Positions 21,879 through 42,148 of a stretch of DNA of 64,000 nt are shown piece by piece. Under the pieces are notes generated by a model that worked only from the letters and a program-made list of their open reading frames with translations, was not told the origin of the DNA and made no database searches. The translations under genes and the position numbers were made by a program. The stretch is taken from positions 2,666,001 through 2,730,000 of the forward strand of contig NZ_CP034562.1 in assembly GCF_003970675.1 (NCBI RefSeq), given 5' to 3'. This DNA comes from Flammeovirga pectinis (GTDB taxonomy: Bacteria > Bacteroidota > Bacteroidia > Cytophagales > Flammeovirgaceae). Position 1 is the first letter of the stretch, and each line of letters opens with the position of its first letter.

Positions 21879-22244
21879 ATGAAAAAGTTAACCACAGCAG
21901 AAGAACAAGTAATGCAAGTTTTATGGGATCTTGATAAAGCCTTTGTTAAAGATATCATTGAACAACTCCCCGTACCTAAACCTGCTTATAACACAGTTTC
22001 TACTATTATTAGAATACTAGAACAAAAAGAATTTGTAGGACATCAGACGTTTGGAAAATCGCATCAATATTATCCATTAATGAGTAAAGAACAGTATTCT
22101 CATCAATATCTTAAGAGTTTTGTAGGTCGCTTTTTCAGTGGGTCTTTTGAGAATATGGTGTCTTTCTTTGCTAAAAAAGAAGATGTTGATATTAATGAAT
22201 TAGAGGATCTTCTTAAAGATATTGATAACGATAAAAAAGACTAA
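21879..22244 (+). CDS. BlaI/MecI/CopY family transcriptional repressor
   Basis: 121 aa. Winged helix: LTTAEEQVMQVLWDLDKAFVKDIIEQLP, then PAYNTVSTIIRILEQKEFVGHQTFGKSHQYYPLMSKEQY, the conserved recognition helix and wing. The C-terminal dimerisation region (about 75-121) includes the family's DINELEDLLKDI-type helix. BlaI proteins are inactivated by proteolysis triggered by a BlaR1-type M56 protein, which is the next gene (5 bases away). Three dyads upstream support autoregulation. Confidence 0.93.
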   Translation: MKKLTTAEEQVMQVLWDLDKAFVKDIIEQLPVPKPAYNTVSTIIRILEQKEFVGHQTFGKSHQYYPLMSKEQYSHQYLKSFVGRFFSGSFENMVSFFAKKEDVDINELEDLLKDIDNDKKD

Positions 22245-22249
22245 ATATC

Positions 22250-23981: not shown

Positions 23982-25328
23982 ATGAAATTAATCTTCACAA
24001 TTCTATTAATTGCACCCCTTTTTTCATTAGCTCAAACAAGAAAAGAGGCTAAAGTAATTCATCAAAAGCAAATCGATTTTTATAACCAAAAAAAAGCTAG
24101 TCAAAATGAAAAAGTGACAACACTCTGGGATAAATTTAAACACGATCATCCAGAATTATATGAACAAAGAGTACTCCATTTGAAAAATGATTCTATAAGG
24201 TTGTCTAAAGAGAGAGATGATAACACACAAATTGTATTAAAAAAAATAGAAAGTTTAGATATTAATAGTCATTATATTGATTTGGAAAATTCATCATTAG
24301 AAGAAATACCTAATCAAGTTTTTAATATGATTAATATTGATACTTTAAAACTAACAAACCACCACTTTAAAACTATTCCTAAAAAATTAAATCAGCTTAA
24401 GAAGCTAAAATATCTTGATCTGTCTAATAATGATTTATCATCTTCAAAAATTCGATTCTCGAAATTGAAAAAACTCGAATACCTTAATTTAAGTCAGTGT
24501 AGTTTAACAAAACTACCAAAAGGATTACGAAAACTTAAAAACCTTAAGATATTAGTTTTAACTGAAAACCCATTAGAGGACACTAAGAAAATTCAACATC
24601 TAAAAAATTTAGAAAGTTTAAAACTAAACAAAACTATTGTATCTCTAGAGCCTTATAGTATTGGTAAATTGAAGAAGCTTAAAAAATTGAATATGAATGA
24701 ATGCCAACTCCTTGAAATTCCACCTAGAATAAAAAGAATGAAGGACTTAGAAAGTATTGTAATGGCAAGAAATAATATTAAAACCATACCAGATGAATTA
24801 AGTCAATTACAAAAACTTGATAATCTTATACTTTATGAAAACGAAATAGATAATTTACCATTATCCTTCTTTCAATTAACTGAACTAAAAGAATTAGACC
24901 TATATCATAATAAGATTACACATTTACCTAAAGAAATAGGGCAACTTACAAAGTTGAATACACTTTATATTTCATTTAATCAGATAAGTGAGCTACCTAT
25001 TGAAATGCAATCACTTACTCAATTAAGAAAGTTATATGCACATCATAATAAATTAGAATACGTTTTTGATTTGAGTTCTTTTAAAGAATTAGAAGTGTTA
25101 CACCTTCAAGAAAACAAATTAAATAACTTCCCAATATCAATACTAACACTATCCAATTTAGTCGAATTAAATCTCTCAGAAAATAAAATTACGACCTTCC
25201 CTGCTGATATTAAGAATTTCAAACATATTGAAATCCTCAATTTATCAGATAATATGGTTGAGTCTATAGAAGATTTTAAAATAGAATTAGAAGGAATGAG
25301 CAAAAATGGGGTTATTGTTAATCTATAA
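23982..25328 (+). CDS. Exported leucine-rich repeat protein
   Basis: 448 aa. Signal peptide about 1-17 (LLIAPLFSLAQ). A Lys-rich helical region (18-90) precedes roughly 15 leucine-rich repeats of 22-24 residues (about 95-440) with the LxxLxxLxLxxNxLxxLP pattern, e.g. LKKLKYLDLSNNDL and LTELKELDLYHNKI. Such proteins bind other proteins; the partner is unknown. There is no LPXTG or type IX sorting domain visible at the C-terminus, so it is probably periplasmic or loosely surface-associated. It lies 187 bases after the M56 gene, separated by a terminator. Confidence 0.85.
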   Translation: MKLIFTILLIAPLFSLAQTRKEAKVIHQKQIDFYNQKKASQNEKVTTLWDKFKHDHPELYEQRVLHLKNDSIRLSKERDDNTQIVLKKIESLDINSHYIDLENSSLEEIPNQVFNMINIDTLKLTNHHFKTIPKKLNQLKKLKYLDLSNNDLSSSKIRFSKLKKLEYLNLSQCSLTKLPKGLRKLKNLKILVLTENPLEDTKKIQHLKNLESLKLNKTIVSLEPYSIGKLKKLKKLNMNECQLLEIPPRIKRMKDLESIVMARNNIKTIPDELSQLQKLDNLILYENEIDNLPLSFFQLTELKELDLYHNKITHLPKEIGQLTKLNTLYISFNQISELPIEMQSLTQLRKLYAHHNKLEYVFDLSSFKELEVLHLQENKLNNFPISILTLSNLVELNLSENKITTFPADIKNFKHIEILNLSDNMVESIEDFKIELEGMSKNGVIVNL

Positions 25329-25985: not shown

Positions 25986-26663
25986 CTATACAGCAGAAAG
26001 AACATTGATATCATCATTTTCTATGATATTGGTCTTATACCCTCTGTTTACAACATTAATCATTGCCTTTCCTAAACGTGATGAAGTTGTAACATATTTA
26101 GGAAAAAGGCGGTCTAATATTGGAAAAACAGGTCTTAAAATTTTATAGATCGTCTTATAAATAGATACCTTAGATTCTACACCTTTCTCTGGCTGAATTA
26201 CAGCAGGTCTAAACATATATGCAGACTTAAAAGGAAATCTCATTAACTGATTTTCCGTTTTACCTTTCACATTTGCCCAATCTGTTGCTGAATTTTCTTT
26301 AGAAGATGTTCCTGCTCCAGATACATAACAAAAAGAAATGTCTGGATTGAGTGGTAAAATTATATTTGCAAAGTGTAATGTTAAATTATAAGTAATATGA
26401 GTATATTCCTTTATAGAAACACCTGCAGAAGATATACCTAAGCAAAAATAACAAGCATTATAACCTACCAATTTTGGTATAATGTCTGTAAGATCAAAAA
26501 AATCTTTATGAATAACCTCTTCTAGCTTTGGATGTGTCATTCCTATTGATTCACGAACAATGATCAATACTTTATCCACTTTATCACTATCAAGACATTC
26601 TAGAAGAACACTTTTACCTACCATACCAGTAGCTCCTGTGATAATTGCTTTAATTTTTTCCAT
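25986..26663 (-). CDS. Rossmann-fold NAD(P)-binding oxidoreductase
   Basis: 225 aa of the atypical short-chain dehydrogenase / HTATIP2-like type. The N-terminal GATGMVG (G10-G16) is the NAD(P)-binding turn. CYFCLGISSAG and CYVSGAGTSSKEN follow, then WANVKGKTENQLMRFPF, where K is in the position of the SDR catalytic Lys though the usual YxxxK Tyr is absent. Proteins of this group often lack proven enzymatic activity. Substrate unknown. Single gene with its own terminator. Confidence 0.83.
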   Translation of the reverse strand: MEKIKAIITGATGMVGKSVLLECLDSDKVDKVLIIVRESIGMTHPKLEEVIHKDFFDLTDIIPKLVGYNACYFCLGISSAGVSIKEYTHITYNLTLHFANIILPLNPDISFCYVSGAGTSSKENSATDWANVKGKTENQLMRFPFKSAYMFRPAVIQPEKGVESKVSIYKTIYKILRPVFPILDRLFPKYVTTSSRLGKAMINVVNRGYKTNIIENDDINVLSAV

Positions 26664-26757: not shown

Positions 26758-29700
26758 TTAATTAATGAGCACAAAACCTCCCCAAAAATAGGGGTCATTA
26801 TATAAAGAATCTTCCATTCTTTCTACTTGTGCCTCTCTAAAAGCCTGATCTCTATCCTTACAGATAAGCCATTTTTTATAAAAGGTTGTCATTAATTGTT
26901 GTGTTGCATAGTCATCTACATTCCATAAACTCATAATAACAGACTTAGCTCCTGCTACATTAAATGCAAAAAGTAGTGCAGAGATTCCATCGTCATCAAT
27001 AGAGGTTATATTCTCTGTCTGACACGCTGATAAAACTACTAATTCAGTACTGTCTAAATTTAACGATCGTACCTCATAAGCGGTTAATATTCCATCAGTG
27101 CCATTATTATACCTATATTGAATATTACTATCATTATTTGCTTTAATTTCCGAAAAATAAAGGCCAGATTTTAATAACCTCTTATTTATAAAATTATACT
27201 CTGCATTAATCGTATTATCAAAGAAACCATGCGTAGCAATGTGTATAACACTTGGCGAATAGTTTAAATTAATCAACTCTTCTTCTCTAGCTTCTTCTCC
27301 TAATAGTACTGTTACATCCCAATTATTTTTTAAAAGCTGTTTTTCTACATTTTCAATTTCCAATGCAGTTCCAGGTAAGTCATAAAGCTCAAACATCTCT
27401 TTCTCACCTTCTTTATAACCTAAATTGGTTCTTTCTTGTAAGGTAATTTTTTTTGATTTTTTACTTACTGAAAAAGAAGGATTACCGATCATTAATGCGC
27501 GCTTATTTTCTATATTCTCTAATTTGTATTCTGAAGTAATATTTAAGGTATTTGATACTAAAAATATATAATCTTCCATCAATACATATTTATTTGTCTT
27601 AGGGTTTTTAAGGGTATTAATATTGATAAGGCTATAAATGCCATGAGGACTCACAAATATTCTATGAGGAGTAACATTACTTTCTTCTATTGCTTGTTTA
27701 ATGGGTTTCCAATAGGTATCGTATACATTAGAACTGGATGAGTTAAGCGTATAAATACCTTCCTTTATATGTAACGAATTTTGATATTCTGCATACATCA
27801 CTTTATCTAAATACTTAGCATAACCTAGCGCTATAAGTTGCGGAGCAGTAGAGTTTTTATTGAGAATTAATGCAAAATATTTACTGTTATTTTCTTTATA
27901 ATCTTTTATTCTAACTATATCTACTACCACATCATGCTCACCCAAATTAGCTTGAATATATTTCCATGTAATGTCTAAATTATCCTGATCTGCAGCTACA
28001 AAAGTATTTGCTGCACTTAACAACGACTTCTCTAAATTCCTTACTCTATCAATCTCTTCTACAGGGTTAATATGTAGGCTGTCTCTTTGTGCTTCTGTCA
28101 TATAACTAATTGCTGCTATTCTGGAGCGTAATGCATTTAGTTTCTCTAAATAATTTGAAAACCCACTTTCTAAACTGTAATCTTCTAATAAATTGAGTTT
28201 TTGTTTTGACAGAATTGCTTCATTTTTCAGTAAATTTCTGTAGCGAATCTCAATATTATAACATTGCTCTATCATTTTAGAAGAAGATTTCTCTCCTCTA
28301 AGGAATATCATTGCATCAAAAATGGCAAATACAGACCTTGTACTTCTCAGGTACATTACCTTCTCTTCTTGAGATAATTTTTTAAAAACATCATCATAAA
28401 ATAACATTCTTTGGTTTGTTGCCTTTACAATTAGTGTTTCAGCCTTAGACCAATTATCTTCTAAAGCATACAGATATGCTAACTGACTTAGTATTCGTGT
28501 TTCAATTATAGGAATTCCAACCGTAATTTTTGATAATTCTTCTAACTGACTTTTAGCACTATCTAATTGATTTAGTTCTATTAATTCTTGTGCCTTAAAA
28601 AGCTTTGCTTTAAGTCTAAAAGTCTCAGTTGCTGCAAATTCATTCCGAATTGCAATTTCTTCTATTTCATCACAAAGTTCAATTACTTTAAAAGGTTTAT
28701 TTTGAATTTTATAAATCTCAGCTTTAAAGTATTTCACCTGAATTAAGCTAACATTATATTCAGAATAATCTTCTGAAATTTTATCAGAGACCAAGTTTAA
28801 GAACTCAAGTGCTTCGTTATTTTGCCCTTTTGCTTTTAAAATTAAAGCTTGAAAGAGATTGACCAAATTAGATTTAACAGTAAACTTTTCTATAATATTT
28901 TTATACTCTTCAAGATACTGTTCTGCTCTATGTATTCTATCGTAAGTTAAATTAAATTCTATAGTTAATTTACTACATACTAGATAGGAATATATATACT
29001 CATAATAATTATTTCTAAGCCTAGTCGATAATTCTAAAAGGTCAAATTCTGAATAAATAAACTTATCCTGAAATTTCAACTGCCTTACTTTAACAGATAA
29101 ATAATAGATGTAGTTTGTTCCGTAATGGTCGATACTATGTTCCACCTCCTCTAGTATTTTTTTAGATTGAGCATAATGACCAGTATACAAATACATACTT
29201 GCTAGTTGAAGTTTCGCTTTCTGATAGATTTGATCTCTTACTCCATTTTTTTCATATATAGTAATCCCCTTAATAAGAAGGTCTTTCACTTTTGGGAGGT
29301 TTGAAATTTGAAAATTAACTTCACTAGCCCTAATCCATACATTGGCTAGTGCAATACTTTTCTTACCATAGACCTCAATTGCCGTCTTTTCTGCTTTCTG
29401 ATATGTCTCTATAGCTTTAGCAAATTTTTGAGATAACACATAAGTGTCTGATAAAACAATTAATAAACGAGCAGCTACAACTGATTTAGATAAATCATAC
29501 TGTTTCAATTCTCTCTCTAAGTCAATCAGTATTGCTATAGATTTATCAAATTGTCCTTGATTATTATATAATTTTGCTCTATGAACTTCTATTATCGAAT
29601 AATCTCTTAAATAGTTAAATGGAGAAACTATTGATCTAGCTACAGAAATGGCTTCTAAGAAATAGTCATCTGCAATACTATAGTTCTTTCTTTCTACCTC

Positions 29701-30204
29701 AATAAGTCCTTTATTAAAAAGTGTATGTACGTTATATGTTGTGTTTACCCCAATAGTGTTTTTTTCTAGTGTTTCTATTAAAGAAATGTAGACATCAACA
29801 TTTACATCATCTCCCAAACGCAAATAAATTAGTAATAAATAGTTAGTGGCAATAATATAATCTGGGTACATCCAACCTGCTGATTTATCGATAATATCAA
29901 TCGCTTTTTCAAAATATTGAATTGCACGCGTATACTCTTGTTTCTCCTTTATTATTCTCCCTTTCCAAATTAAAGGAGCAACTAGTTTTATAGAATTAGG
30001 CTTACCTTCATTTTCAATGCTCTTAATCCATTTATCAATATAGACTTCCGCTTTGTCCATTTCGCCATACTGACGGTAATTATTAACTACAGAAACGTTA
30101 TAATTTTCTATTGTTTGCGCTAAACCAATAATACTATTATCGAATAAAAGCACTTGTAGAAGTACTAAGATTTTAAATATAAATTTACAAGAAGGGGTAC
30201 TCAT
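26758..30204 (-). CDS. Exported TPR-CHAT protein (paralogue 1)
   Basis: 1148 aa. Signal peptide about 1-30 (ending GLAQ). The next 600 or so residues form TPR-type helical repeats (e.g. ARAIQYFEKAIDI-like YTRAIQYFEKAIDII, FAKAIETYQKAEKTA). A helical linker (about 630-740) follows, then a C-terminal CHAT caspase-like domain (about 760-1148) with HIATHGFF (H992) and LSACQT (C1061), the His-Cys dyad, and AGAKSVIMSLWNVDD. Both catalytic residues are present, so it is probably an active cysteine protease in the periplasm. The CQT is followed by EN rather than the usual G. It is the last of three tandem paralogues and follows a hairpin. Confidence 0.9.
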   Translation of the reverse strand: MSTPSCKFIFKILVLLQVLLFDNSIIGLAQTIENYNVSVVNNYRQYGEMDKAEVYIDKWIKSIENEGKPNSIKLVAPLIWKGRIIKEKQEYTRAIQYFEKAIDIIDKSAGWMYPDYIIATNYLLLIYLRLGDDVNVDVYISLIETLEKNTIGVNTTYNVHTLFNKGLIEVERKNYSIADDYFLEAISVARSIVSPFNYLRDYSIIEVHRAKLYNNQGQFDKSIAILIDLERELKQYDLSKSVVAARLLIVLSDTYVLSQKFAKAIETYQKAEKTAIEVYGKKSIALANVWIRASEVNFQISNLPKVKDLLIKGITIYEKNGVRDQIYQKAKLQLASMYLYTGHYAQSKKILEEVEHSIDHYGTNYIYYLSVKVRQLKFQDKFIYSEFDLLELSTRLRNNYYEYIYSYLVCSKLTIEFNLTYDRIHRAEQYLEEYKNIIEKFTVKSNLVNLFQALILKAKGQNNEALEFLNLVSDKISEDYSEYNVSLIQVKYFKAEIYKIQNKPFKVIELCDEIEEIAIRNEFAATETFRLKAKLFKAQELIELNQLDSAKSQLEELSKITVGIPIIETRILSQLAYLYALEDNWSKAETLIVKATNQRMLFYDDVFKKLSQEEKVMYLRSTRSVFAIFDAMIFLRGEKSSSKMIEQCYNIEIRYRNLLKNEAILSKQKLNLLEDYSLESGFSNYLEKLNALRSRIAAISYMTEAQRDSLHINPVEEIDRVRNLEKSLLSAANTFVAADQDNLDITWKYIQANLGEHDVVVDIVRIKDYKENNSKYFALILNKNSTAPQLIALGYAKYLDKVMYAEYQNSLHIKEGIYTLNSSSSNVYDTYWKPIKQAIEESNVTPHRIFVSPHGIYSLININTLKNPKTNKYVLMEDYIFLVSNTLNITSEYKLENIENKRALMIGNPSFSVSKKSKKITLQERTNLGYKEGEKEMFELYDLPGTALEIENVEKQLLKNNWDVTVLLGEEAREEELINLNYSPSVIHIATHGFFDNTINAEYNFINKRLLKSGLYFSEIKANNDSNIQYRYNNGTDGILTAYEVRSLNLDSTELVVLSACQTENITSIDDDGISALLFAFNVAGAKSVIMSLWNVDDYATQQLMTTFYKKWLICKDRDQAFREAQVERMEDSLYNDPYFWGGFVLIN

Positions 30205-30214
30205 AAGAATTAAA

Positions 30215-30259
30215 TAAAAAAAGGCAATAGTTATATACTTATAAGATACAACTATTGCC
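30215..30259 (-). terminator. Hairpin with T-run between CHAT paralogues 2 and 1
   Basis: Perfect 10-bp stem GGCAATAGTT / AACTATTGCC (arms 30223-30232 and 30250-30259) followed on the minus strand by six or more T. It lies 31 bases after the stop of paralogue 2 and only 19 bases before the start of paralogue 1. A TAGTTTTG -7-like box (minus strand, 30260-30267) abuts it, so a separate start for paralogue 1 is possible. Confidence 0.65.
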
Positions 30260-30289
30260 CAAAACTACTTTAAATAAAAATACTTTTTT

Positions 30290-33200
30290 TTAATTTACCA
30301 TAACAAAAGCTCCCCAATAATAAGGTTTCTTATATTCATTCATAAGTACTAATTGTGCTTCTTTAAAAGCTTGATATTTGTCTCCCGTTTCAAACCACTT
30401 TTTATAAAAAGTAGTCATTAACTTTTGTGTTGCAAAATCATCAACACTCCATAGACTCATAATTATTGTTTCTGCTCCTGCTATTCTAAAAGCATACTGT
30501 AAACCAGAAATTCCCTCGCCATCTGTTACCTCGGCTAAACCACTTTGGCAAGCTGATAAAATCAAAAGCTCTGTATTGTCTAGGTTCACTTCTTTTGCTT
30601 CATAAGCAGTTAATATACCATCAACCTCAGAAGAATAAATCTCTTTTGCATCACGCTGGTTCCTTTTAGATATTTCTGAAAAGAACAAACCCGAACGTAA
30701 CAGTTCATTATTTGAAATTGAGTTAGGCAATTCATTAATAAAAAAGCCATGCGTAGCAATATGAAGTACTTTAGGCGATTTTTTCATTCTCTTAAGGAAA
30801 AGTTCTGTTGCTTTTTCTTGCATTAAAGCCTCTACTTCCCACCCATTTTCTTTAAGTAATTTGCTCGATTCTATTACCTCTACTTCTGTCCCTGGTAAAG
30901 GATCTAACATAAATTCTAGTGCTGCATCGTCTTCAGAAGCATCTACCACTGTTCTCGTATTTTCTGATTTGGATACATATTTATTCTCATTAAATATCGG
31001 GTTCCCTACCAATAAAGCATTTTTCTCATCAGAAGTTTCTTTTTTATCCAATAACAACTCGCCTGTACTCGTCATCATTTTAATATCCATTTCTTCAATT
31101 AGAAACTTACCCGTTTCTCTATTTTTTAGAATATTTAGGTTGATAAGATTATACACGCCATCTGCACAAATAAACACTTCTTTTTGGTTCTCTGTAATTA
31201 CCTTTTGAATAGGACCCCAAAATGTTTGATAAGGATCTGCAATTCCTTTGGTCGATTTCATTACTAGTGATCTCGAATAAGGTGTAGTTTGTTTACTGTA
31301 TTGAAAATAAGCTTCTGTTTCTAAAAAATTTGTTTCTCCAATATCAACTATTGTAGGAATTGCACATTCATTATCTATAATTAAAGCAATGTATTTTGAT
31401 TCTTTCGCTTCTATACTTTTCAATTTAATGATTTCAATAGCTACTTGATCTTCTTCTAATTTCCTTTGAATCTTCTCCCAATTTATTGCTTCTTCTGTAG
31501 CTACTTCGTATTCATCGGCAGCATAAACAAGTACCTTTTCTAGGTTGTTGATTCTGTCCATTACATTATAGTAATTGACACCAATCTCTTTCCGTTCTTT
31601 AGTACTCATATAATTTAGGGTAGCGATATTAGATTTTAGAGAATACATTTTATTTAAATAAGATGGATACCCTTGGTCTAATCGTTCCTTTTTAAAAGCG
31701 AGTAATTGCTGCTTACGTTTCTGTCCTTCTGTTAAGAAAAAATCTCTATATTCTAATTGTAAATTATAGCAATGCGACAACATTTCTCCAGAAGACTCTT
31801 CTCCTTTCATGTATATCATTGCATAAAAATGATCAAAAAGTGTTTTTGTTTTTTGTAAGTACAAACGCTTTTCGTCTTCGCTAGAATAGTTTAATGTTTC
31901 TCTATAAAACACCAAGCGTTCTTGCGTTGCACTAATAATCATTTCTTCTGCCTCTTTCCAATTTCCTTGTAAAGCATATAAATAGGCTATATCTCCTTCA
32001 AAATCAGTTTTAATCAGTTTATTTTCTAAAGACTTGTAATTAATCTGCTCATACAATGCACTCGCTTTATCTAATTCATTATCTGACATATAAATTTCTG
32101 CCATTGCTTTCTGAATACTGAGATAAAGAATTTTATCATTATTGATATTTAATAAATCGCAGACATTTATTGCTTTATTTAAATAATCCAAAGCCTCCTT
32201 TTTATTCTCTAAACCTACCAAGTTTTTACCTTGTAATTGATAAATTTCGATAAGTACGTGATGTTTTTTAGAGAATTTATGGACAACCATATCTTCTACA
32301 TTAGTGAGTAATTCAGATGCTAAAGCATAGTTCTTTTTTGCCTCTAAAATCTTAGCTCTACTTAATAATTCGTTGATATAAATTAAAGTTGTATCAGATT
32401 TAAAAACACTCCCTGCAATCTCCGTTTTTGTTTTTACGGGTAATATGCGGCCTTTAGTAACCAAACCTTTTAGATAGGATTCTGATTTAATTTCTTTTTG
32501 CTTTATCAAAGATGAGTTGACAACACTTCTGTCATCGTATTTTTTAGGTATAATTCTACCTTTAGTTATTAGACCTTTAAAATAAGAAACAGATTCTTCT
32601 AACTGAATGGTATTCAATAAAGTCATTTCTCTGTTTAACACCTCTTCTGCTTTATCTACCCTGCCCAGCATTATATTAAGATGAACAGACATTTCTGTAG
32701 CTTTTGCAAAGTATTCAGAACGTTCCATATGCGATCGTTCCATAATATTTAGCAGTTCCGATAGTTGTAATTCTGCTTCAATAAAACGTCCATAAAGAAT
32801 GTTTAACCTTGCAGAAGTAAGCAGTATATTATGTAAAGGTAGAGAAGATGAACTTCCTAACTCTTTGGCTAATTCTAAATGCTGATTTGCTAATGCATAA
32901 TTACCTAAATGAATGTAGACATCTGCTAAATCAAGCAATACCAAAAGTCTTCTAATTTTTTCTGTCTCATCTTTTTTATAGATTGATTCAGCCTTAATAA
33001 AAAGTGCTTTAGCTAAATTTAATTTAGATTGTTGCACATATACTTTTGCTATTCTTGTAATTCCTACTGCATGTGCATTATGCTCTTCACCTAATAATCT
33101 AGTTACCTGAGCCTCGTACTGATTATAATAAAAAAGTGCTTCTGGAAAATGTTCTATTTTTCTATTCGCATCGCCTAACAACAATAATATTCTAGTGGCA

Positions 33201-33928
33201 TCAGAAGAGTTATTTAACTGCTGATTTTTATAATTTTCGTATAGAAATTTAAGAATATGAATTGCTTCTGTATTTCGGTATTGCTGAATGTATAAATCTG
33301 CAAGGTAGACCTCATAAATAGAATATTCTCTAAAATAAGTTTGAAGGTCTGTTTTATTCTTTGCTATCTCTATTGCTTCAAAATAATGGATTTCTGCATC
33401 TAGATAATTTCCTGCCAACGTCTCAAAAAGTGCTTTATTAAACAGTGTATGAGAATAATTTATATTATCGGTTCCAATTGTTTTTTCAAAGATTAATTCT
33501 ACCTCTTCTATTAAAGGTTTTACAGATTGAAAATGTCCTAATCTTAAAGAACAGCTAATTAAATAATTTAGAGCAACAGCATAATCAGGATATAACCAAC
33601 CTGTTGAGTTCTTCATTATTCTCAGAGCTTGTTTAAAGTCTTCGGCACCCATACCAAATTCCTGACGTTCAAGTCTAATTTTCCCTCTATCAATTAAAGG
33701 AATAACCATTCTTATAGATGATAGACCAAATTCTTTTATTACCTCGTCTACATTGTTTTGTGTGAGCTGAAGAGCATCTTCTAGTTTACCTTTTTCGCGT
33801 AATGTTATAAGAGAGTCTTTATAAAACTTATGTTCTTTATTATTTTCTGCAAAACTATTTATGTTCGCACATAATAGTAAAATAGAGGCTATAAGCAAGC
33901 TCCATTTTTGGGGATTACAGTTATTCAT
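30290..33928 (-). CDS. Exported TPR-CHAT protein (paralogue 2)
   Basis: 1212 aa. Signal peptide about 1-27 (LLLCANINSFAE). A TPR array follows to about residue 690, then a linker and a C-terminal CHAT domain with HIATHGFF (H1060) and LSACQSG (C1127), AGAETIIMSLWSVDD and the terminal PYYWGAFVMVN. It carries an internal expansion absent from its neighbours: SYFKGLITKGRIIPKK at 448, SYLKGLVTKGRILPVK at 484 and a degenerate IYINELLSRAKILEAK at 516. Predicted periplasmic cysteine protease whose TPRs bind partners or substrates. It starts 53 bases after paralogue 3 stops, so the two are probably co-transcribed. Confidence 0.92.
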   Translation of the reverse strand: MNNCNPQKWSLLIASILLLCANINSFAENNKEHKFYKDSLITLREKGKLEDALQLTQNNVDEVIKEFGLSSIRMVIPLIDRGKIRLERQEFGMGAEDFKQALRIMKNSTGWLYPDYAVALNYLISCSLRLGHFQSVKPLIEEVELIFEKTIGTDNINYSHTLFNKALFETLAGNYLDAEIHYFEAIEIAKNKTDLQTYFREYSIYEVYLADLYIQQYRNTEAIHILKFLYENYKNQQLNNSSDATRILLLLGDANRKIEHFPEALFYYNQYEAQVTRLLGEEHNAHAVGITRIAKVYVQQSKLNLAKALFIKAESIYKKDETEKIRRLLVLLDLADVYIHLGNYALANQHLELAKELGSSSSLPLHNILLTSARLNILYGRFIEAELQLSELLNIMERSHMERSEYFAKATEMSVHLNIMLGRVDKAEEVLNREMTLLNTIQLEESVSYFKGLITKGRIIPKKYDDRSVVNSSLIKQKEIKSESYLKGLVTKGRILPVKTKTEIAGSVFKSDTTLIYINELLSRAKILEAKKNYALASELLTNVEDMVVHKFSKKHHVLIEIYQLQGKNLVGLENKKEALDYLNKAINVCDLLNINNDKILYLSIQKAMAEIYMSDNELDKASALYEQINYKSLENKLIKTDFEGDIAYLYALQGNWKEAEEMIISATQERLVFYRETLNYSSEDEKRLYLQKTKTLFDHFYAMIYMKGEESSGEMLSHCYNLQLEYRDFFLTEGQKRKQQLLAFKKERLDQGYPSYLNKMYSLKSNIATLNYMSTKERKEIGVNYYNVMDRINNLEKVLVYAADEYEVATEEAINWEKIQRKLEEDQVAIEIIKLKSIEAKESKYIALIIDNECAIPTIVDIGETNFLETEAYFQYSKQTTPYSRSLVMKSTKGIADPYQTFWGPIQKVITENQKEVFICADGVYNLINLNILKNRETGKFLIEEMDIKMMTSTGELLLDKKETSDEKNALLVGNPIFNENKYVSKSENTRTVVDASEDDAALEFMLDPLPGTEVEVIESSKLLKENGWEVEALMQEKATELFLKRMKKSPKVLHIATHGFFINELPNSISNNELLRSGLFFSEISKRNQRDAKEIYSSEVDGILTAYEAKEVNLDNTELLILSACQSGLAEVTDGEGISGLQYAFRIAGAETIIMSLWSVDDFATQKLMTTFYKKWFETGDKYQAFKEAQLVLMNEYKKPYYWGAFVMVN

Positions 33929-33981
33929 TATTAAGTTAAAAGGTTATTTTGAAAGTTGTTTAGTTATTATTTGTAATGTTA

Positions 33982-36900
33982 TTAGTTCACTATTACAAAT
34001 GCACCCCAATAATAAGGCTTTTTAAATTCATTCATTATATCTAACTGTGCTTTTCTGAACGCTTCATGTCTATCCTTTCCTTCTTTCCAGTAAGTATAGA
34101 ATTTTGTCATTAGTTTCTGAGTGGCTTCATCGTCTACATTCCATAAGCTCATTACTATAGATTTTGCACCTGCAATACTAAACGCATATTGTAAACCAGA
34201 AATCCCTTCACCTTCAGTCACCTCAGAAACTCCCGTTTGGCAAGCAGAAAGAATAATCAATTCTGTCTTTTTAAGGTCTAGGGTTGCTACTTCATAAGCT
34301 GTTAAAATTCCGTCTATACCTGATAGGTAAATATCATCTAGAGTACGATCTTGTATTTCAGAAAACTCAGTAAAAAACAAGCCAGACCGTAACATTGGGT
34401 TAGAAGATACTGGATTCTTAAGGGAGTTTAAGAAGAAACCATGTGTAGCAATATGTATTACCGATGGCGATTTTTTTATCCCTTTTAGTAATGCCTCTTT
34501 TGCATTTTCTTGAGTATATACTTCAACATCCCAATCACTTTCTTTTAATAGTGCTTCCAAAGACTTTATTTCTGTCTCTGTTCCAGGTAACTCGTCTAAT
34601 CTTATATTCAATCCTTTTGCAATAGAACCTCTAGATTGTCTAGTCGTATCTTGTTGCAGGCTCTTTTCTACTTTATTAAAGATAGGATTACCAATAAGCA
34701 TTGCGGTTTTATCCACATCATGCCTTGTTACTCTCTCTTTAATAATTTCTGTAGTACTTGTTATTTGATAGATAAACTCTTCTTGAATAAGGTATTTTTC
34801 AGTTTCTGGGTTCTGAAGTGTATTTATATTCAATAAACTATAGATTCCATCTGCACAGAAAAATATTTTAGAGTAAGCCTTACCTCCTTCTTTTATCTTA
34901 TCGCTTATTGGTTTCCAATATACAGTATAGGGGTCTTTTTTACTTTTGTCAGCATCTACAAAAATCAATGACCTTCCTAATGGGCTTATTTGTTTTTGGT
35001 ACTGGTAAAATGCTACATCTTCTAGAATGCTACTATGCCCTAAAGTAACCATCATTGGTGTTTCTAAATCCTTGGTAAGGCATAAAGCAAAGTACTCAGA
35101 ATTTCTTTTGTCTAAGGTTCTCAACTTTACAATTTCTATTGCAATTTCACCTTCTTGCAGTTTACTTTTAATCTCCCTCCAAGTTGTAAGTTTTGTTGTA
35201 GTAACAGTATTAGTATAAGCATCTGCTGCATAAACCAACGACTTTTCTAGGGTATTAATTCTATCAATTATTTTAAAAGGATCTACACCTAATTCTTCTC
35301 TTTGTTCTTTTGAGAAGTAATTTAAAGAAGCTACTCTACCTCTAAAATTAATCATGTAATTAGTATAACTAGGAAAACCTTGCTTAAGCCTATCTTCCCT
35401 GTATTTAATTAAATGATTTGAACGCTGCTTTGTTTGTTCTAAAAAGAAATCACGATAACGAATCTGTAGATTATAGCAATTTTCAATCATACTTTTTGAT
35501 GCATTGTTTCCTTCTAAGTTTAGAATAGCATAAAAAGTATCGAACACATCACTAGTTTTATGTAAGTATTGTTCCTTTTCTTGAGTACTTGAGTAAGCGA
35601 GTGTATTGTCATAAAAATCAAAACGATTTTTCACACCTTTAATAATTAGTTCTTCTGCTAATTTCCACTCTCCTTTTAAGGCATAAACATAGGCTATTGC
35701 AGCTTCTAATGTTGATGTTATTAATGTTCCTGGAAGTGTATTTTTATAGGTTGATTTATAAAGAGCTATCGCTTCATCATATTTTTTATTCTTTACTAAA
35801 AAGTCAGCATAAAACTTCTGAACCCTAATATAGTGAACTGCCTGTGGGGTAACTTTAGCTTTAAAGACTCTCAATGCCTCTTGATAATATTCTTCAGCCT
35901 TTTCATTATCACCAAGATTACCATAATAGTAAGCTAAAAATCCATTTAAGTCGCCATTGCTTAAATGGTCTTTACCAAACTTGTCTAATAAATAATTTTG
36001 TGCACTTAGTAAATCTTTTAAAGAAAGTTTACCCTTTCCTTGTACAGAATATAGATATGCTCTTGTGGTAATTACATCGATATAATTTAATGAACCCTCT
36101 TGATGTATCATTTCTAAAAAACTGAGACCTCGTTTTATTGTATTTTCAGCCTTTTCTGTTCTTCCAAGGTATATATTCAGTTCAACAAGGTCTAAGGCAG
36201 ATGTAGTAAAATCTCTTAAATACCTTTGATTGTTCTGCCTCATTAAATCAATATTCTCTGTAAGGGCAATCTCTGCCTCCACAAATTGGCCATGAATTAT
36301 AGCAAGCCTAGCTATCGTATTTTGTAAATAATAATTGTGTTCTTTCTTTTCGCCTAGAACTTCATTTCCTTTTGCTAATAAATCTTCTGCTTCTTTGTAC
36401 CTCCCTGTTTCTAGATAAACATTAGCAAGATCTACTAAAGTATTCACATATCTTGCTTCCTCATTTTTATTTAATTTATAAATAGAGATAGAAGTTAATA
36501 ATAACTTTTCTGCATCCTTATAATCTGTTTGCAACATTAGTAAGTTAGCCATCTCTCTCATTATCCATGCATAAGCAAGATGTTGTTCGTTGGTTTGAAA
36601 CTTAACGAGTTTCTCTGCTTTTTTAAATGATGCAATAGCTAAATCATATTTACCATCTACTTTATAAGCAATACCAAGTGCTAATAATGCACGAGAATAA
36701 TTACCAGATTTCTCGCAATTATCTTTTTCCATATCTACCAGAAGTGCTTTCAATAAGTCTATGGCTTCTTTTTGTCTGTAAGTTCTGGTATATAAATGAG
36801 ACAAGAAGATGTCAATTTCTCTAAAATTACGGTCTATTACACGTCTGAATGATACAATTAGTGAAATTTCTTTTGCCGATAAAAAATACTCTTCAGCCTT

Positions 36901-37437
36901 ATCAAATTCACCTTCATTCATGGCTCCAAGACCAAGGTTAAATAAATAATAACTCTGATCTATATTGTTCGCGTCTATTGTTTTTTCATGAATACTTGCT
37001 ACTTCATTAAGAATTTTTTTAGGCTTTTCTATCTCTCCTAAACGTAAATACACAGTAGCTAAATGGTTTAAGGCAACGGCATAGTCTGGGTAAAGCCACC
37101 CCGTTGTTTTGTCTAAAATATCTACAGCTCGTTGAAAGTAGACTAAAGATTCTTCAAACTCTTGTCTAATTAAGCAAATTCTTCCCAATACAATTAAAGG
37201 AATATTGGAATGAATTGTTCCTGATCCGTGTACTTTTTCTTCCTGATGTAGCCAATTTAAAGACATTGATTTGGCTGCATTTAAATCTCCCTGTTCTGTA
37301 AGTCTTTTAATTTCTTCTACAGTAAACCCATCACCTCTATTTTTAAAAGATTCTATATAATTATCGAAAGCATTTACAGATAAATTGCAGACACAGACTA
37401 GTAATACAATTAAACAACACTTAAATAGAGATGTCAT
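33982..37437 (-). CDS. Exported TPR-CHAT protein (paralogue 3, first in the operon)
   Basis: 1151 aa from ATG 37437 (MTSLFKCCLIVLLVCV), which begins a good signal peptide (to about NAFD). A 20-residue upstream extension to 37497 overlaps the likely -7 box and is rejected. TPR repeats fill about 45-650, including NEKAEEYYQEALRVFKAK. The CHAT domain has HIATHGFF (H999), LSACQTG (C1066), EGEGISGLQYAF and SLWNVDDEAT. All caspase-like features are intact. In other bacteria CHAT proteases are activated by a partner and cleave a specific target; here the partner is unknown. It is the first gene of the cluster. Confidence 0.92.
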   Translation of the reverse strand: MTSLFKCCLIVLLVCVCNLSVNAFDNYIESFKNRGDGFTVEEIKRLTEQGDLNAAKSMSLNWLHQEEKVHGSGTIHSNIPLIVLGRICLIRQEFEESLVYFQRAVDILDKTTGWLYPDYAVALNHLATVYLRLGEIEKPKKILNEVASIHEKTIDANNIDQSYYLFNLGLGAMNEGEFDKAEEYFLSAKEISLIVSFRRVIDRNFREIDIFLSHLYTRTYRQKEAIDLLKALLVDMEKDNCEKSGNYSRALLALGIAYKVDGKYDLAIASFKKAEKLVKFQTNEQHLAYAWIMREMANLLMLQTDYKDAEKLLLTSISIYKLNKNEEARYVNTLVDLANVYLETGRYKEAEDLLAKGNEVLGEKKEHNYYLQNTIARLAIIHGQFVEAEIALTENIDLMRQNNQRYLRDFTTSALDLVELNIYLGRTEKAENTIKRGLSFLEMIHQEGSLNYIDVITTRAYLYSVQGKGKLSLKDLLSAQNYLLDKFGKDHLSNGDLNGFLAYYYGNLGDNEKAEEYYQEALRVFKAKVTPQAVHYIRVQKFYADFLVKNKKYDEAIALYKSTYKNTLPGTLITSTLEAAIAYVYALKGEWKLAEELIIKGVKNRFDFYDNTLAYSSTQEKEQYLHKTSDVFDTFYAILNLEGNNASKSMIENCYNLQIRYRDFFLEQTKQRSNHLIKYREDRLKQGFPSYTNYMINFRGRVASLNYFSKEQREELGVDPFKIIDRINTLEKSLVYAADAYTNTVTTTKLTTWREIKSKLQEGEIAIEIVKLRTLDKRNSEYFALCLTKDLETPMMVTLGHSSILEDVAFYQYQKQISPLGRSLIFVDADKSKKDPYTVYWKPISDKIKEGGKAYSKIFFCADGIYSLLNINTLQNPETEKYLIQEEFIYQITSTTEIIKERVTRHDVDKTAMLIGNPIFNKVEKSLQQDTTRQSRGSIAKGLNIRLDELPGTETEIKSLEALLKESDWDVEVYTQENAKEALLKGIKKSPSVIHIATHGFFLNSLKNPVSSNPMLRSGLFFTEFSEIQDRTLDDIYLSGIDGILTAYEVATLDLKKTELIILSACQTGVSEVTEGEGISGLQYAFSIAGAKSIVMSLWNVDDEATQKLMTKFYTYWKEGKDRHEAFRKAQLDIMNEFKKPYYWGAFVIVN

Positions 37438-37494: not shown

Positions 37495-37502
37495 CAAAGA
37501 TA
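37495..37502 (-). promoter_or_regulatory. Likely -7 promoter box of the CHAT cluster
   Basis: On the minus strand the bases read TATCTTTG, a perfect match to the Bacteroidota -7 consensus TAnnTTTG, 57 bases before ATG 37437. A convincing -33 TTG at the right spacing is not obvious. Confidence 0.5.
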
Positions 37503-37883: not shown

Positions 37884-38501
37884 TTATTGATAGCAAACAG
37901 CAATAGCGATTTCATTGCCTATCGTTTTTAGGTCGAACTTCCAATTGTGCAGTTCTCCAACTTCTAAAACCCACTGCTTATTTATGTACCAAAAGTTAAA
38001 GCTTCCTAGTTGGTATGTTTTATCAGTGGCTTTTATAAATGCTTCTTTCATTGTAAAAAGATGAAACAATGCTAGTTTTCTTGTAGCATCATTTGCTATA
38101 GATTGTACTTCTTTTAGCTCTTGTGATGATAAAAACCATTTTAATTTACTTTCATCTAACTGAGAAATTGGTTCTACATCAACCCCAATTTCTTTATCAG
38201 AAAGTACAATAACAATGTACCCGTTACTATGAGAAATATTAAAAAATATTGCTTTTTCACCATAAATAGGTGATAAATAAGGCTTACCATTATCTGTATA
38301 AGACAACGATAATTGTTTAGGTAGAATACCTAATTCTTTTGCTAAGGTATATTTTAAGAATGTTCTAGCAATTAGAAATTCTTCTTTCTTCTGTTCCTTA
38401 ATAAATCGTTTATAACGTTTTAACTCGTTACCATCTAAAAGAGATATATCTCCTTTTACGGCATCGGTAGACGTTGTTACTAGCTTATATCCTTTTTCCA
38501 T
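37884..38501 (-). CDS. 4'-phosphopantetheinyl transferase
   Basis: 205 aa, Sfp superfamily, length typical of Sfp-type enzymes. It transfers the phosphopantetheine arm of CoA to a carrier-protein serine. Motifs: FNISHSNGYIVIVLSD, IGVDVEPI (D108 and E110 bind Mg) and FTMKEAFIKATD, the WxxKEA motif with F in place of W. Its place downstream of PepSY and TonB-receptor genes suggests a link to siderophore metabolism, but no NRPS is in the window, so it may instead serve the general acyl carrier protein. Confidence 0.9.
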   Translation of the reverse strand: MEKGYKLVTTSTDAVKGDISLLDGNELKRYKRFIKEQKKEEFLIARTFLKYTLAKELGILPKQLSLSYTDNGKPYLSPIYGEKAIFFNISHSNGYIVIVLSDKEIGVDVEPISQLDESKLKWFLSSQELKEVQSIANDATRKLALFHLFTMKEAFIKATDKTYQLGSFNFWYINKQWVLEVGELHNWKFDLKTIGNEIAIAVCYQ

Positions 38502-38570: not shown

Positions 38571-39626
38571 TTATCTTTTATAATAAAGCAACCAACCTAA
38601 TATAGAAAGAAGTGCTAAGCCTAAACCTGCTAAAGAATTAATTATTCTGTGAATTAAACCTCCCAGTTCTCCAAAATGAATTGGTGCTATCCATTTATTG
38701 GTAATAGCATCTACGGCAGAAGCCTTGTCTGGATTAAATACAAATATAGGCTCACCAGAATAGATATCTACATTCATGTAAGCGCGTTCTCTTTTACCTG
38801 CATGTAATGATTTATCTTTCATCCAAGATAAGTAAATAGTTTTTTCTTTATCTTGAGTAAGGTGTATGGATCTTGGGTAATAAGAAGTGAAGTATTTATT
38901 CATTTCTTCTATAGTCTGTTGAATGTTAAGTACATTACCAGCCCCTTTAGATTTTACTTCTAATGGCTTATCACTCTCCGTCATTGTTACTACAGAAAGT
39001 ACCGCTACATATTGTTTTTTAAAGGTAAAGTACGGTCCTGATAATCCTAAAATTATCACGAAAACACTTACATAAATCCCAATCATCATATGCCAAGAAA
39101 TAGCAAAACTCTTTTTCTTAATGGATACCCAATTCCAAAAATCTCTTTTCTTAAACTTTCTACACTTAGGGTACCATAAATAGATTCCTGAAGTAAAAAG
39201 TAGTATTGATGTAATTAAGGCAATCCAAGCCACAAAGTATTTGCCTCCATCTACAAAGAAAGACATGTGTAGTTTTAATAAACTATCAAAAATACCGCGT
39301 CTAGAATCCATCTGTCCTAAATCTTTACCATCTTTTGGATTAATAAAATGATAAAGTTCTTCGTTATAAAATCTAATAATAAATGTTTCCCTTTCCCTTT
39401 CCGGAAAATAAAAAGTATCTATTCTCTTATTATTACGCTTTTCTAATAAAGAGGAGATTTCTAACGGAGTAAGGTTTTCTGTTGTTTCTTGAGCTGAATA
39501 TAAATCATTATACATCAATTTTGTTAGTTCTGGCTGCCATGTGTATATGCTTCCAGAAAGTCCAATTATTATTAATGGAACTCCTAATACTAAACCTAAC
39601 CATTGATGTATTTTCCTTATAATCAT
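38571..39626 (-). CDS. PepSY-associated TM helix protein, iron-uptake linked
   Basis: 351 aa. A membrane helix near the N-terminus (KIHQWLGLVLGVPLIIIGLSGSIYTW), two central helices (about 130-155 and 175-200, including ISWHMMIGIYVS) and a C-terminal helix before YYKR give the four-helix PepSY_TM layout. The conserved His residues in the helices may bind heme or metal. Family members often act as inner membrane reductases releasing iron from siderophores. It lies 86 bases downstream of the TonB siderophore receptor and is probably co-transcribed. Confidence 0.9.
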   Translation of the reverse strand: MIIRKIHQWLGLVLGVPLIIIGLSGSIYTWQPELTKLMYNDLYSAQETTENLTPLEISSLLEKRNNKRIDTFYFPERERETFIIRFYNEELYHFINPKDGKDLGQMDSRRGIFDSLLKLHMSFFVDGGKYFVAWIALITSILLFTSGIYLWYPKCRKFKKRDFWNWVSIKKKSFAISWHMMIGIYVSVFVIILGLSGPYFTFKKQYVAVLSVVTMTESDKPLEVKSKGAGNVLNIQQTIEEMNKYFTSYYPRSIHLTQDKEKTIYLSWMKDKSLHAGKRERAYMNVDIYSGEPIFVFNPDKASAVDAITNKWIAPIHFGELGGLIHRIINSLAGLGLALLSILGWLLYYKR

Positions 39627-39712
39627 CTCTATGAAAATTATTTTTAATCACAAATAGAGACAAAATAATTTCGTCTCTATTGGATTCAGTTTCTGAAAAA
39701 TAAAACCTCTTT

Positions 39713-42046
39713 TTAGAATAAATACTTAAAGCTTAAAACAAAATGTCTAGGTGCTCCAGGCATAACTCTATTGTAGTTTTGCGAACCTACATAATATTCT
39801 GTATTTGTTAAGTTCTTAACTGTTAATGTTGTTGACCAACGATCGGCTCTGTAAAATAAATTACCTTCGATCAAATTATACTCCGGTAACATCTCTGAAT
39901 TAGGCACATTTGCTGCAGCTCTTTCAGAAACATAATTATAACCAACTCCTGCTCCAAAACCTTTAAGACCACCTCTTTGTATCTCGTAGTTCATCCATAA
40001 TTTATACATATGTGGAGCAACATTTAATAACGCCTGCCCTACCATATCTGGGTTTGTATCTTCTGTAATTCTAGCATTTGTATAAGAATAAGAAGTCATA
40101 AACGTCCACCCAGGAAGAGGCTCTCCTTGTAAATCAAATTCAATTCCATTACTCTTGGCAACACCTGTTTGTACTTGGAAATCTTGATCCGTAGGGTCTT
40201 GTACAAGCATACCGTTTCTTGTTAAATCAAAGTAGGTAGCTGTAATATTAAACTTATCGTTTAAGAAGTAAAGTTTTGCTCCAAAATCAAAAGATGTATT
40301 CACAATAGGATCAAAAAGGTTTCCGTTTTTATCTGCCGGGTTACCCCACTGCGGATTAAATCCAGTCGACAAGTTTGTAAATAATGAGATGCTCTTAGTT
40401 AATTTACCCATTACTCCTACTCTTGGAGAAACACCCATATATGTACTATTGGTAATCTCTCCGTTTTTTCTATTGTTATATTCTTGTTGATAAATATCAT
40501 AGCGTACTCCACCAATAACATTTAACCAATTTGTAAGCTCAATAAAATCTTGCACATAAAAACCATAGTTATTGATAGTGTATAGATAATCGTTTGTTGT
40601 TACCATATCCAACTCGTTTGGAGGTAACTGATTGTACTCTGTATTATACACAGATACCGTATCGTAGCTTTTATCTTGCTGAATAAACATATCTGTAGTT
40701 GTTTGAGCTACTTCTACTCCTAAAACAGCTTTATGTTTAGTAGAACCCCAATTAAATGAACCTAAAAATTCATTCTGCATTGCTAGATACTGTTCTGAAT
40801 GTCTTTGATCTTGATAATATCTTTTTACTGAATCTGGTGCTACAAAGCCACTCACTTCTACTGCATTTCTAGCTCCATTTGTAAATAACATATTACCCGC
40901 ATTTCTAAAAGTCCACTTATCATTAATCTGATGAGCAACTTCATATTGCGTTAAGTTATTGGTGTTTTTTGTTTCGTTGTAAGGATCTCCAAAACTTTTA
41001 TTTGGCTCAAAACTATATTTTGTATCAGTGTTCGGATCGTACAAAGGAACACCTCTATCTGTTGGCTGAGAATGATTTAAATACTCTCCTTGTACAGTTA
41101 TTTTTGTTCTTGGCGAAATATCATACGTTAATACAGGTGCTAAAAAATAACGTTCTGTATTTACAAAATCTCTATAAGTTCCTCCAGATTCAATTGCTCC
41201 ATTCAATCGGAATTTCATCTTACCTTCATCATCTAATGGGCCTCCAATATCAAAAGATGGACGCACCATACCAAAGCTGTTTGTTGTAAAACTTACTTCA
41301 CCATGCTTATACGATTTTGGTGCTTTTGTAACGATATTAATCGTTCCTCCCGGATCAGAAACACCATATAAAGCAGAAGCAGGACCTTTTACAATTTCTA
41401 TTTGCTGAATATTAGAACTCTCACGGTAAATACGCATTGGGTTCCTAAATCCATTTTTAAAAATTGATTCTCTTTCCGATCTAAATCCTCTTATAATATA
41501 AATATCAGTTCTACCACCAAAACCAGTTTCTTGGTTTACACCGCTTACATATTGTACTGCATCTGTTATTCTTACAGGCTCAATTTGATCGAGCATATAT
41601 TTTGATAAAACATCTAATGCAAACGGTAATTCTTTAGGATGAATTGGTACTTTTGTTCCAATAGTAGTTGCGTTCGTTAAGTATTCGTCGCTATATAGAT
41701 CTCCAGATACTACAACTTCATTTAATTCTGAATAAGCACTTTTAAGCTTAAAATTCTTTGTTGTTTTCTCACCTGCTACAACTTCTACTTCTACTGTTTG
41801 AGTAGCAAAGCCCACTGAAGTAATTACTATTTTTTTCTTCCCCGGAGCAACGTTATGGATAATATAATTTCCATTTACATCTGTAGCATCTCCATAATTA
41901 CCACCCTGAATAATAACATTTGCTCCAATAATGGTATTTCCATCATCTCCGACAACGTTACCTATAATATCTCCAACATTTTGTGCCGTAGCATTTGTTA
42001 GCACTAGTAAAAAAGTAAGTAAAAGTAAAAAGCTGTAACTCTTCAT
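39713..42046 (-). CDS. TonB-dependent siderophore receptor
   Basis: 777 aa from ATG 42046 (MKSYSFLLLLTF). Signal peptide about 1-22. Carboxypeptidase-like regulatory domain (about 23-105), then a plug domain (about 120-235) with DAVQYVSGVNQETGFGGR, IRGFRSERESIFKNGFR, and a 22-strand barrel ending GAPRHFVLSFKYLF with the usual terminal aromatic. The plug resembles ferric hydroxamate/ferrioxamine receptors (FhuA/FoxA group). It imports a ferric chelate in a TonB-driven manner. Two palindromes lie just upstream. It is the first gene of a likely receptor-PepSY-PPTase operon. Confidence 0.92.
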   Translation of the reverse strand: MKSYSFLLLLTFLLVLTNATAQNVGDIIGNVVGDDGNTIIGANVIIQGGNYGDATDVNGNYIIHNVAPGKKKIVITSVGFATQTVEVEVVAGEKTTKNFKLKSAYSELNEVVVSGDLYSDEYLTNATTIGTKVPIHPKELPFALDVLSKYMLDQIEPVRITDAVQYVSGVNQETGFGGRTDIYIIRGFRSERESIFKNGFRNPMRIYRESSNIQQIEIVKGPASALYGVSDPGGTINIVTKAPKSYKHGEVSFTTNSFGMVRPSFDIGGPLDDEGKMKFRLNGAIESGGTYRDFVNTERYFLAPVLTYDISPRTKITVQGEYLNHSQPTDRGVPLYDPNTDTKYSFEPNKSFGDPYNETKNTNNLTQYEVAHQINDKWTFRNAGNMLFTNGARNAVEVSGFVAPDSVKRYYQDQRHSEQYLAMQNEFLGSFNWGSTKHKAVLGVEVAQTTTDMFIQQDKSYDTVSVYNTEYNQLPPNELDMVTTNDYLYTINNYGFYVQDFIELTNWLNVIGGVRYDIYQQEYNNRKNGEITNSTYMGVSPRVGVMGKLTKSISLFTNLSTGFNPQWGNPADKNGNLFDPIVNTSFDFGAKLYFLNDKFNITATYFDLTRNGMLVQDPTDQDFQVQTGVAKSNGIEFDLQGEPLPGWTFMTSYSYTNARITEDTNPDMVGQALLNVAPHMYKLWMNYEIQRGGLKGFGAGVGYNYVSERAAANVPNSEMLPEYNLIEGNLFYRADRWSTTLTVKNLTNTEYYVGSQNYNRVMPGAPRHFVLSFKYLF

Positions 42047-42148
42047 TAAAGTATTAATATCAGTATAAAATAAACACAACAGCAAATGTAATTTTATTTA
42101 GACTGATTACAGATAAGAGTATTTGCAATAAGTGTTAACAAATGAAAC

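Follow-up and report, generated by a model that had tools for sequence, protein, structure and literature searches.

Three TPR-CHAT genes in tandem

The window, a stretch of 64,000 nucleotides from contig NZ_CP034562.1 of Flammeovirga pectinis, carries three paralogous intact genes placed head-to-tail on the minus strand, each combining an array of tetratricopeptide repeats (TPRs) with a CHAT domain of caspase-type fold and a His/Cys dyad. Open reading frames (ORFs) and Pfam domains agree on this layout, as a preliminary description of the sequence had proposed. The genes are as follows.

33982..37437, minus strand: CHAT3, 1151 amino acids (aa) from ATG; signal-peptide-like start, TPR superhelix, helical linker and CHAT domain; H999/C1066
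30290..33928, minus strand: CHAT2, 1212 aa; signal-peptide-like start, TPRs and CHAT domain; H1060/C1127
26758..30204, minus strand: CHAT1, 1148 aa; signal-peptide-like start (Ala/Gln context at the cut), TPRs and CHAT domain; H992/C1061

CHAT3 has an alternative upstream start, a TTG at 37497, which gives 1171 aa and residue numbers higher by 20. The Pfam scan matches CHAT (PF12770) in CHAT1, CHAT2 and CHAT3 with E-values of 3.4e-54, 9.2e-55 and 1.6e-59, and with scores of 184.7, 186.6 and 202.2 bits compared with a gathering cut-off of 24; TPR models are matched in all three proteins.

The three His/Cys pairs, named already in the preliminary description, align with the His and Cys of related CHAT proteins. 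Among 178 related CHAT ORFs of at least 700 aa, the window proteins included, the His is present in 176 and the Cys in 175, the remainder being alignment gaps; the conservation of the His is overstated, because the loci were partly recruited by the motif H[IV]ATHGFF. Around the Cys, CHAT1 and its orthologue in the congeneric genome G003 are the only ORFs with a Glu at Cys+3, the other 176 having Gly (166), Ala (7) or a gap (3). Both also lack the Gly residues at C+10 (present in 156/178) and C+15 (160/178). CHAT2 and CHAT3 most probably retain protease activity, and CHAT1 could be a copy that has become specialised or weakened.

The AlphaFold model of CHAT3 (predicted local distance difference test 84.8, predicted template modelling score 0.79) places a TPR superhelix at approximately residues 40–645 and resembles separase and Csx29. 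A direct phmmer search of the CHAT domain of CHAT3 against the PDB found no match at E 10, and a profile was therefore used; Csx29, the TPR-CHAT protein of Craspase in type III-E CRISPR, is the best solved match of the domain by both sequence profile (E 8.8e-4) and Foldseek. Csx29 shares with the window proteins the architecture and fold of a TPR array with a C-terminal CHAT protease. However, Csx29 is cytoplasmic and is paired with Cas7-11 in solved complexes, whereas the window proteins have a signal-peptide-like start instead. Their TPR region is also longer than that of Csx29, with 7y9x aligning only from residue 367 of the CHAT3 model onward. In structure comparison, separase shares the helical repeats and the caspase-fold protease, but it is not among the matches listed by the profile search of the CHAT domain against solved structures. 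Separase is eukaryotic and intracellular, and cuts cohesin.

No Cas gene occurs among the annotated neighbours in the window, to most of which Pfam assigns other families (part of the window ORFs scanned), and PADLOC gave no CRISPR-type match among 18 scanned proteins of the window, namely the three encoded by the cluster and 15 from genes around them. The earlier remark that no Cas gene lies nearby holds for the annotated neighbours and the 18 scanned proteins, rather than for every ORF of the window. The same 18 proteins gave no gasdermin hit, the presence of a gasdermin model in PADLOC being unconfirmed.

Predicted export and proposed mode of action

Sec export of the three window proteins is well supported by their predicted N-termini. 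In a home-made heuristic, used instead of SignalP, all three are positive, with cuts (marked by a slash) at SVNA/FDN in CHAT3, GLA/QTI in CHAT1 and LLLCA/NIN in CHAT2; manual reading of CHAT2 places an AxA-like site a few residues later, at NSFA/ENN. These results, far above those for shuffled N-termini (221/2650 positive, 8.3%) and internal segments (23/2650), bear out the signal peptides first noted from the sequence; other ORFs of the window were positive in 13 of 35 cases. Export is not peculiar to the window cluster and is the rule among relatives: 49 of the 53 CHAT proteins of its own family pass the heuristic, and within the window genome an N-terminal hydrophobic stretch occurs in 9/9 CHAT proteins, eight of which pass (L012 fails). 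No further hydrophobic segment lies past residue 50 in the window CHAT proteins, the maximum 19-residue hydropathy being 1.57. Their C-termini are formed by the CHAT domain, and neither Pfam nor NCBIfam matched a type IX sorting domain at E 1e-3, unlike the gingipains, which are type IX secreted cargo.

The preliminary description had set the window proteins against cytoplasmic CHAT proteases, a contrast that is incomplete, as a CHAT-like fold is also contained in DdvA, a transmembrane anti-sigma factor and solved membrane protein (PDB 8rot, 8rw5). By its PDB title, DdvA is membrane-anchored and sigma-binding, whereas the window proteins have a signal peptide and no such part: the TPRs follow directly on the signal peptide, and neither an internal transmembrane segment nor an anti-sigma Pfam family is found. 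In the available text of PMC4374960, DdvS is active once DdvA is inactivated, and the signal is given as unknown. The prokaryotic metacaspases (PF00656) belong to a Pfam family different from CHAT, and CHAT is unmentioned in the available part of PMC3501461. That part describes N-terminal helices of metacaspases as possible signal peptides, WD40 and TPR domains as partners, and up to three metacaspases per operon, with Bacteroidetes among the groups that have multi-gene operons. The accessible portion of PMC5837995 gives a Q-rule for signal peptidase I substrates, which predicts Gln at +1.

Taken together, the three paralogues are somewhat more probably than otherwise Sec-exported, TPR-gated cysteine proteases of the periplasm, with the separase/Csx29 fold, that act on envelope proteins. 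In Csx29 and separase, a contact of the repeat region holds the protease off until a signal arrives. In the window proteins, the signal peptide would be cut and the mature protein would work in the periplasm, where the TPR superhelix would bind a protein ligand or inhibitor and keep the C-terminal protease off. A signal would then alter the TPR contact and release the protease, whose targets would be a single envelope protein or a small number of them. Work on TPR-CHAT proteases has centred on CRISPR-linked defence; if active, the exported proteins would form a large class of regulated proteases of the periplasm that has gone unstudied.

Two alternatives concern the location and the chemistry of the proteins. 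The N-terminal hydrophobic stretch might not be a working signal peptide, leaving cytoplasmic proteases, and it is true that export and cleavage of the window proteins rest on sequence prediction; however, the signal test lies well over both the shuffled and the internal controls, is positive in most divergent relatives, and many relatives have Gln after the predicted cleavage site, which together render a cytoplasmic location highly improbable. It is unlikely, though to a lesser degree, that the proteins are mainly non-catalytic sensors in which the CHAT fold serves for binding or dimerisation, as could be the case for DdvA. Loss of the His and Cys would be expected in a family without enzymatic function, and thus their retention wherever the column is present in the 178 ORFs, including the three window proteins, counts against this possibility.

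A variable site in a widespread family

The window genome contains nine CHAT matches, of which three form the cluster and six stand elsewhere singly in differing contexts. The site of the cluster is syntenic in nine congeneric genomes and is bounded by the following genes.

37884..38501, minus strand: 4'-phosphopantetheinyl transferase (PPTase), the upstream flank, syntenic in 9/9 genomes of the genus, with no known functional link
25986..26663, minus strand: 225-aa protein, weakly NAD-binding-like (PF07993 just below cut-off), the downstream flank

Between these flanks, the CHAT copies number three in G000 and G003, two in G001, and one each in G004 and G008, where the copy lies beside the PPTase gene. 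In G002, G005, G006 and G007 the site is empty, with flanks 492 to 597 bp apart, and the search for CHAT remnants in these four sites reached a best tblastn E of only 0.54. The 225-aa gene is present at the site in seven of the nine genomes (G000, G001, G003 and the four without CHAT copies); in G004 and G008 it was not observed at this position. As candidates for a conserved functional neighbour, only this gene and PPTase are constant. Conserved clustering is therefore borne out by the three copies of G003 and the two of G001, but not by the single copies of G004 and G008 or by the four empty sites. Since copy number varies at one syntenic site, the cluster is a gained-and-lost module, and the range of zero to three copies among close relatives offers a natural comparison set.

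In an unrooted tree of three flanking proteins (some genes absent for G008), the five carriers fall on one side with a support of 0.999. In the tree of the CHAT proteins themselves, CHAT3 clusters with the PPTase-adjacent copy of G001 and with the only copy each of G004 and G008; CHAT1 falls with the other copy of G001, a long branch (L045_11), and CHAT2 is partnered only by its G003 orthologue. This pattern suggests that the site already had two or more copies when G001 diverged, followed by gain or loss.

Purifying selection acts on each of the three genes, with ratios of nonsynonymous to synonymous substitution (dN/dS) between G000 and G003 orthologues of 0.10 for CHAT3, 0.043 for CHAT2 (the lowest) and 0.11 for CHAT1, values that are rough because dS is near 1. 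Meanwhile, dS between these genomes is 0.27–0.42 in three flanking genes and 0.95 in the M56 gene, compared with near 1 in the CHAT genes. Paralogues are 24–32% identical in the TPR part and 46–55% in CHAT, and the G000/G003 orthologues 79–92% and 86–94%, respectively. The TPR-to-CHAT distance ratio is 1.64–1.91 between paralogues and 1.35–1.6 between orthologues; as these ranges are alike, there is little sign of the special sensor divergence that had been suggested for the TPRs. The copies, with their deeply diverged TPR arrays, probably bind different ligands.

The three CHAT genes may not form one transcription unit. The gap of 53 nt between CHAT3 and CHAT2 has no predicted structure, and the following elements lie in the second gap and ahead of CHAT3.

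30205..30289 (85 nt), minus strand: CHAT2-CHAT1 gap, terminator-like hairpin followed by seven T; -23.8 kcal/mol, z -6.6
37495..37502, minus strand: weak -7-like box TATCTTTG, 57 nt ahead of the CHAT3 ATG and recurring in G003 at a distance of 59 nt

The hairpin is kept in G003 (L041:11077-11160; z -3.3, followed by six T), although a simple terminator scan did not list it at 30205-30289. Within the same gap, a -7-like TAGTTTTG lies 55 nt before CHAT1; a -7 box of the TATCTTTG type was not seen near the start in G001, G004 or G008. The full Bacteroidota promoter pattern has two matches in 64 kb, with approximately six expected by chance and neither at the CHAT locus, and a sigma-70 scan gave 52 sites compared with 69 in shuffles. 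The protease relay of the preliminary description has no support: nothing was found that links the three proteins, the conserved hairpin parts CHAT2 from CHAT1, and the catalytic loop of CHAT1 is altered. Of that interpretation as a whole, export and the dyads stand and the relay falls.

Beyond the cluster, CHAT occurs in 9/9 genomes of the genus (6 to 12 matches each, some weak), in 18/18 genomes of the family search, in 36/44 genomes of an order sample (among the matches listed) and in 18/60 of a class sample, the window genome being in both samples. A set of 78 named loci was assembled by searching for H[IV]ATHGFF or for a motif of the TPR region and retaining what resembled CHAT3, all counts from it applying to the matches listed. 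These loci belong mostly to Cytophagales and other Bacteroidota, with a few Ignavibacteria and Kapaibacteria and one Leptospiraceae bin. The signal test is passed by 74 of their 91 CHAT ORFs, contig-end fragments included, a looser dyad motif is present in 79, and seven loci have tandem CHAT copies. A second sample of 40 regions, hand-picked among the matches listed without the own family and G077, was reduced to 37 loci by dropping three duplicates; here, 36 of the 40 ORFs of at least 700 aa pass the signal test, 31 with Gln at +1, and three loci are tandem. By these counts, exported-looking and occasionally tandem TPR-CHAT proteins are ordinary in these bacteria, and the window cluster is one variable member of a widespread, little-studied envelope protease family, not a unique system. 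A literature search at listing level, mostly outside subscription journals, returned no study devoted to exported TPR-CHAT proteins of Bacteroidota.

Larger arrays and other architectures also occur. Within approximately 20 kb, Cyclobacterium plantarum (L099) has five CHAT genes, four of them head-to-tail and the first cut by the stretch end, together with an exported-looking WD40-caspase (PF00656) gene; two of the CHAT copies have a like start, with ankyrin repeats in the one scanned. The 4.1-Mb genome G077 of the same order has 42 CHAT among the matches listed, with several head-to-tail runs. Exported-looking CHAT proteins of approximately 2000 aa carry MORN_2 repeats ahead of the TPRs (L149 6046-12066 and L166 6220-12201). 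In the available parts of two papers, CHAT proteins are placed near type VI secretion genes in Bacteroides fragilis, one apparently transmembrane (PMC11854122), and in ECF54 contexts (PMC8999054).

OmpA-type neighbours and alternative functions

Among the 78 named loci, 13 have an OmpA-domain ORF no more than 2 kb away from CHAT. Such ORFs account for 14/284 near ORFs and 0/336 beyond 4 kb, a nominal p of 1.5e-5 that is too small, because the 2-kb and 4-kb limits were chosen after the neighbour list was seen, the profile was seeded from a near match and kin loci were not collapsed. The second sample gives a weak replication (5/158 near, 2/249 far, p 0.083). Caspase C14 (3/284 near, 1/336 far, p 0.25; second sample 0/158 and 0/249) and SprF (1/284 and 1/336; second sample 1/158 and 0/249) are not enriched.

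Pfam assigns OmpA to all of five OmpA-type neighbours (L048, L117, L131, L143 and L047) and PD40 to four. The one in L048 comprises TPR_21, PD40, CarboxypepD_reg and OmpA; PorE is described in the available part of PMC9127263 as TPR, WD40 propeller, CRD and OmpA_C. In L048, L052 and L062, from congeneric genomes, TPR-CHAT stands beside a unit of PorP/SprF, a PorE-like protein and a giant protein, typed by Pfam in L048, where the giant protein has a type IX signal (CHU_C), and by clustering in the other two. Elsewhere, the OmpA-type gene is joined by a 730-residue protein (p730), in the order CHAT-OmpA-p730 in L108, L110, L113 and L118 and OmpA-p730-CHAT in L117 and L121, with p730 assigned by like start in L110 and by the neighbour list in the other five. 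Relatives of p730 (E 1e-15) occur at 14 places in 13/118 order genomes, with OmpA adjacent in eight and CHAT in two (G107, which is L177, and G136, of one genus); L177 is also the only CHAT-OmpA-p730 unit among the five OmpA neighbours of the second sample. The genus of the window has six OmpA-p730 places without CHAT (L213, L214 and L222-L225), including an exported-looking pair on the second contig of the window genome (L213 5614-10100). Local profiles matched no OmpA, SprF or caspase C14 in the window, and such partners are a lead about relatives, not about the window cluster. In those relatives, the PorE-like neighbours hint that the partners might be attached to peptidoglycan or the outer membrane.

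These neighbours bear on what the proteases do. They might process envelope proteins as a housekeeping function, with PorE-like partners connecting them to type IX secretion, gliding or the assembly of the outer membrane, a reading for which the three own-genus loci, the nearby OmpA-family ORFs of the 13 named loci and the CHAT-OmpA-p730 order in L108, L110, L113, L118, G107 and G136 all speak. However, it is an unlikely one for the window cluster, given the weak second sample, the lack of C14 and SprF enrichment, the OmpA-p730 pairs that stand without CHAT in the genus and the absence of any such neighbour at the cluster itself. Slightly less credible still is a conflict or anti-phage system, in which gained-and-lost tandem protease paralogues would sense invaders at the envelope. 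The zero to three copies at a single site, the extensive tandem arrays in other genomes of the order (42 matches in G077 and five consecutive in G090, among the matches listed) and the occurrence of CHAT in proposed bacterial conflict systems (PMC10907252, in its available part) are consistent with it, but the flanks are of housekeeping type and PADLOC found no family beyond generic TPR models among the 18 scanned proteins, CHAT3 matching these alone at E of approximately 5e-5 and no known anti-phage family. Compared with the periplasmic, TPR-gated protease proposed above for the window, a broader extension to the order is tentative and rather doubtful: the order may possess a large family of separase-like proteases in the periplasm, with TPR superhelices that report on the state of the envelope. 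In several lineages the protease gene would share an operon with the genes for a PorE-like OmpA/PD40 protein and the exported p730 partner, which has no Pfam family, and the window cluster would be a stand-alone, copy-number-variable branch of this envelope surveillance system.

Further genes surround the cluster. At 21879-23794, a BlaI-type repressor (Penicillinase_R) adjoins an M56 protein that resembles BlaR1 and has a TonB domain at its C-terminus, and the M56 gene is duplicated in G005 and G007. A 448-aa leucine-rich-repeat protein is encoded near the cluster at 23982-25328, with counterparts at a like position in G003, G005, G006 and G007. Beside PPTase, a PepSY protein and a siderophore-type TonB receptor (38571-42085) are found in only G000 and G003 among the nine congeneric loci.
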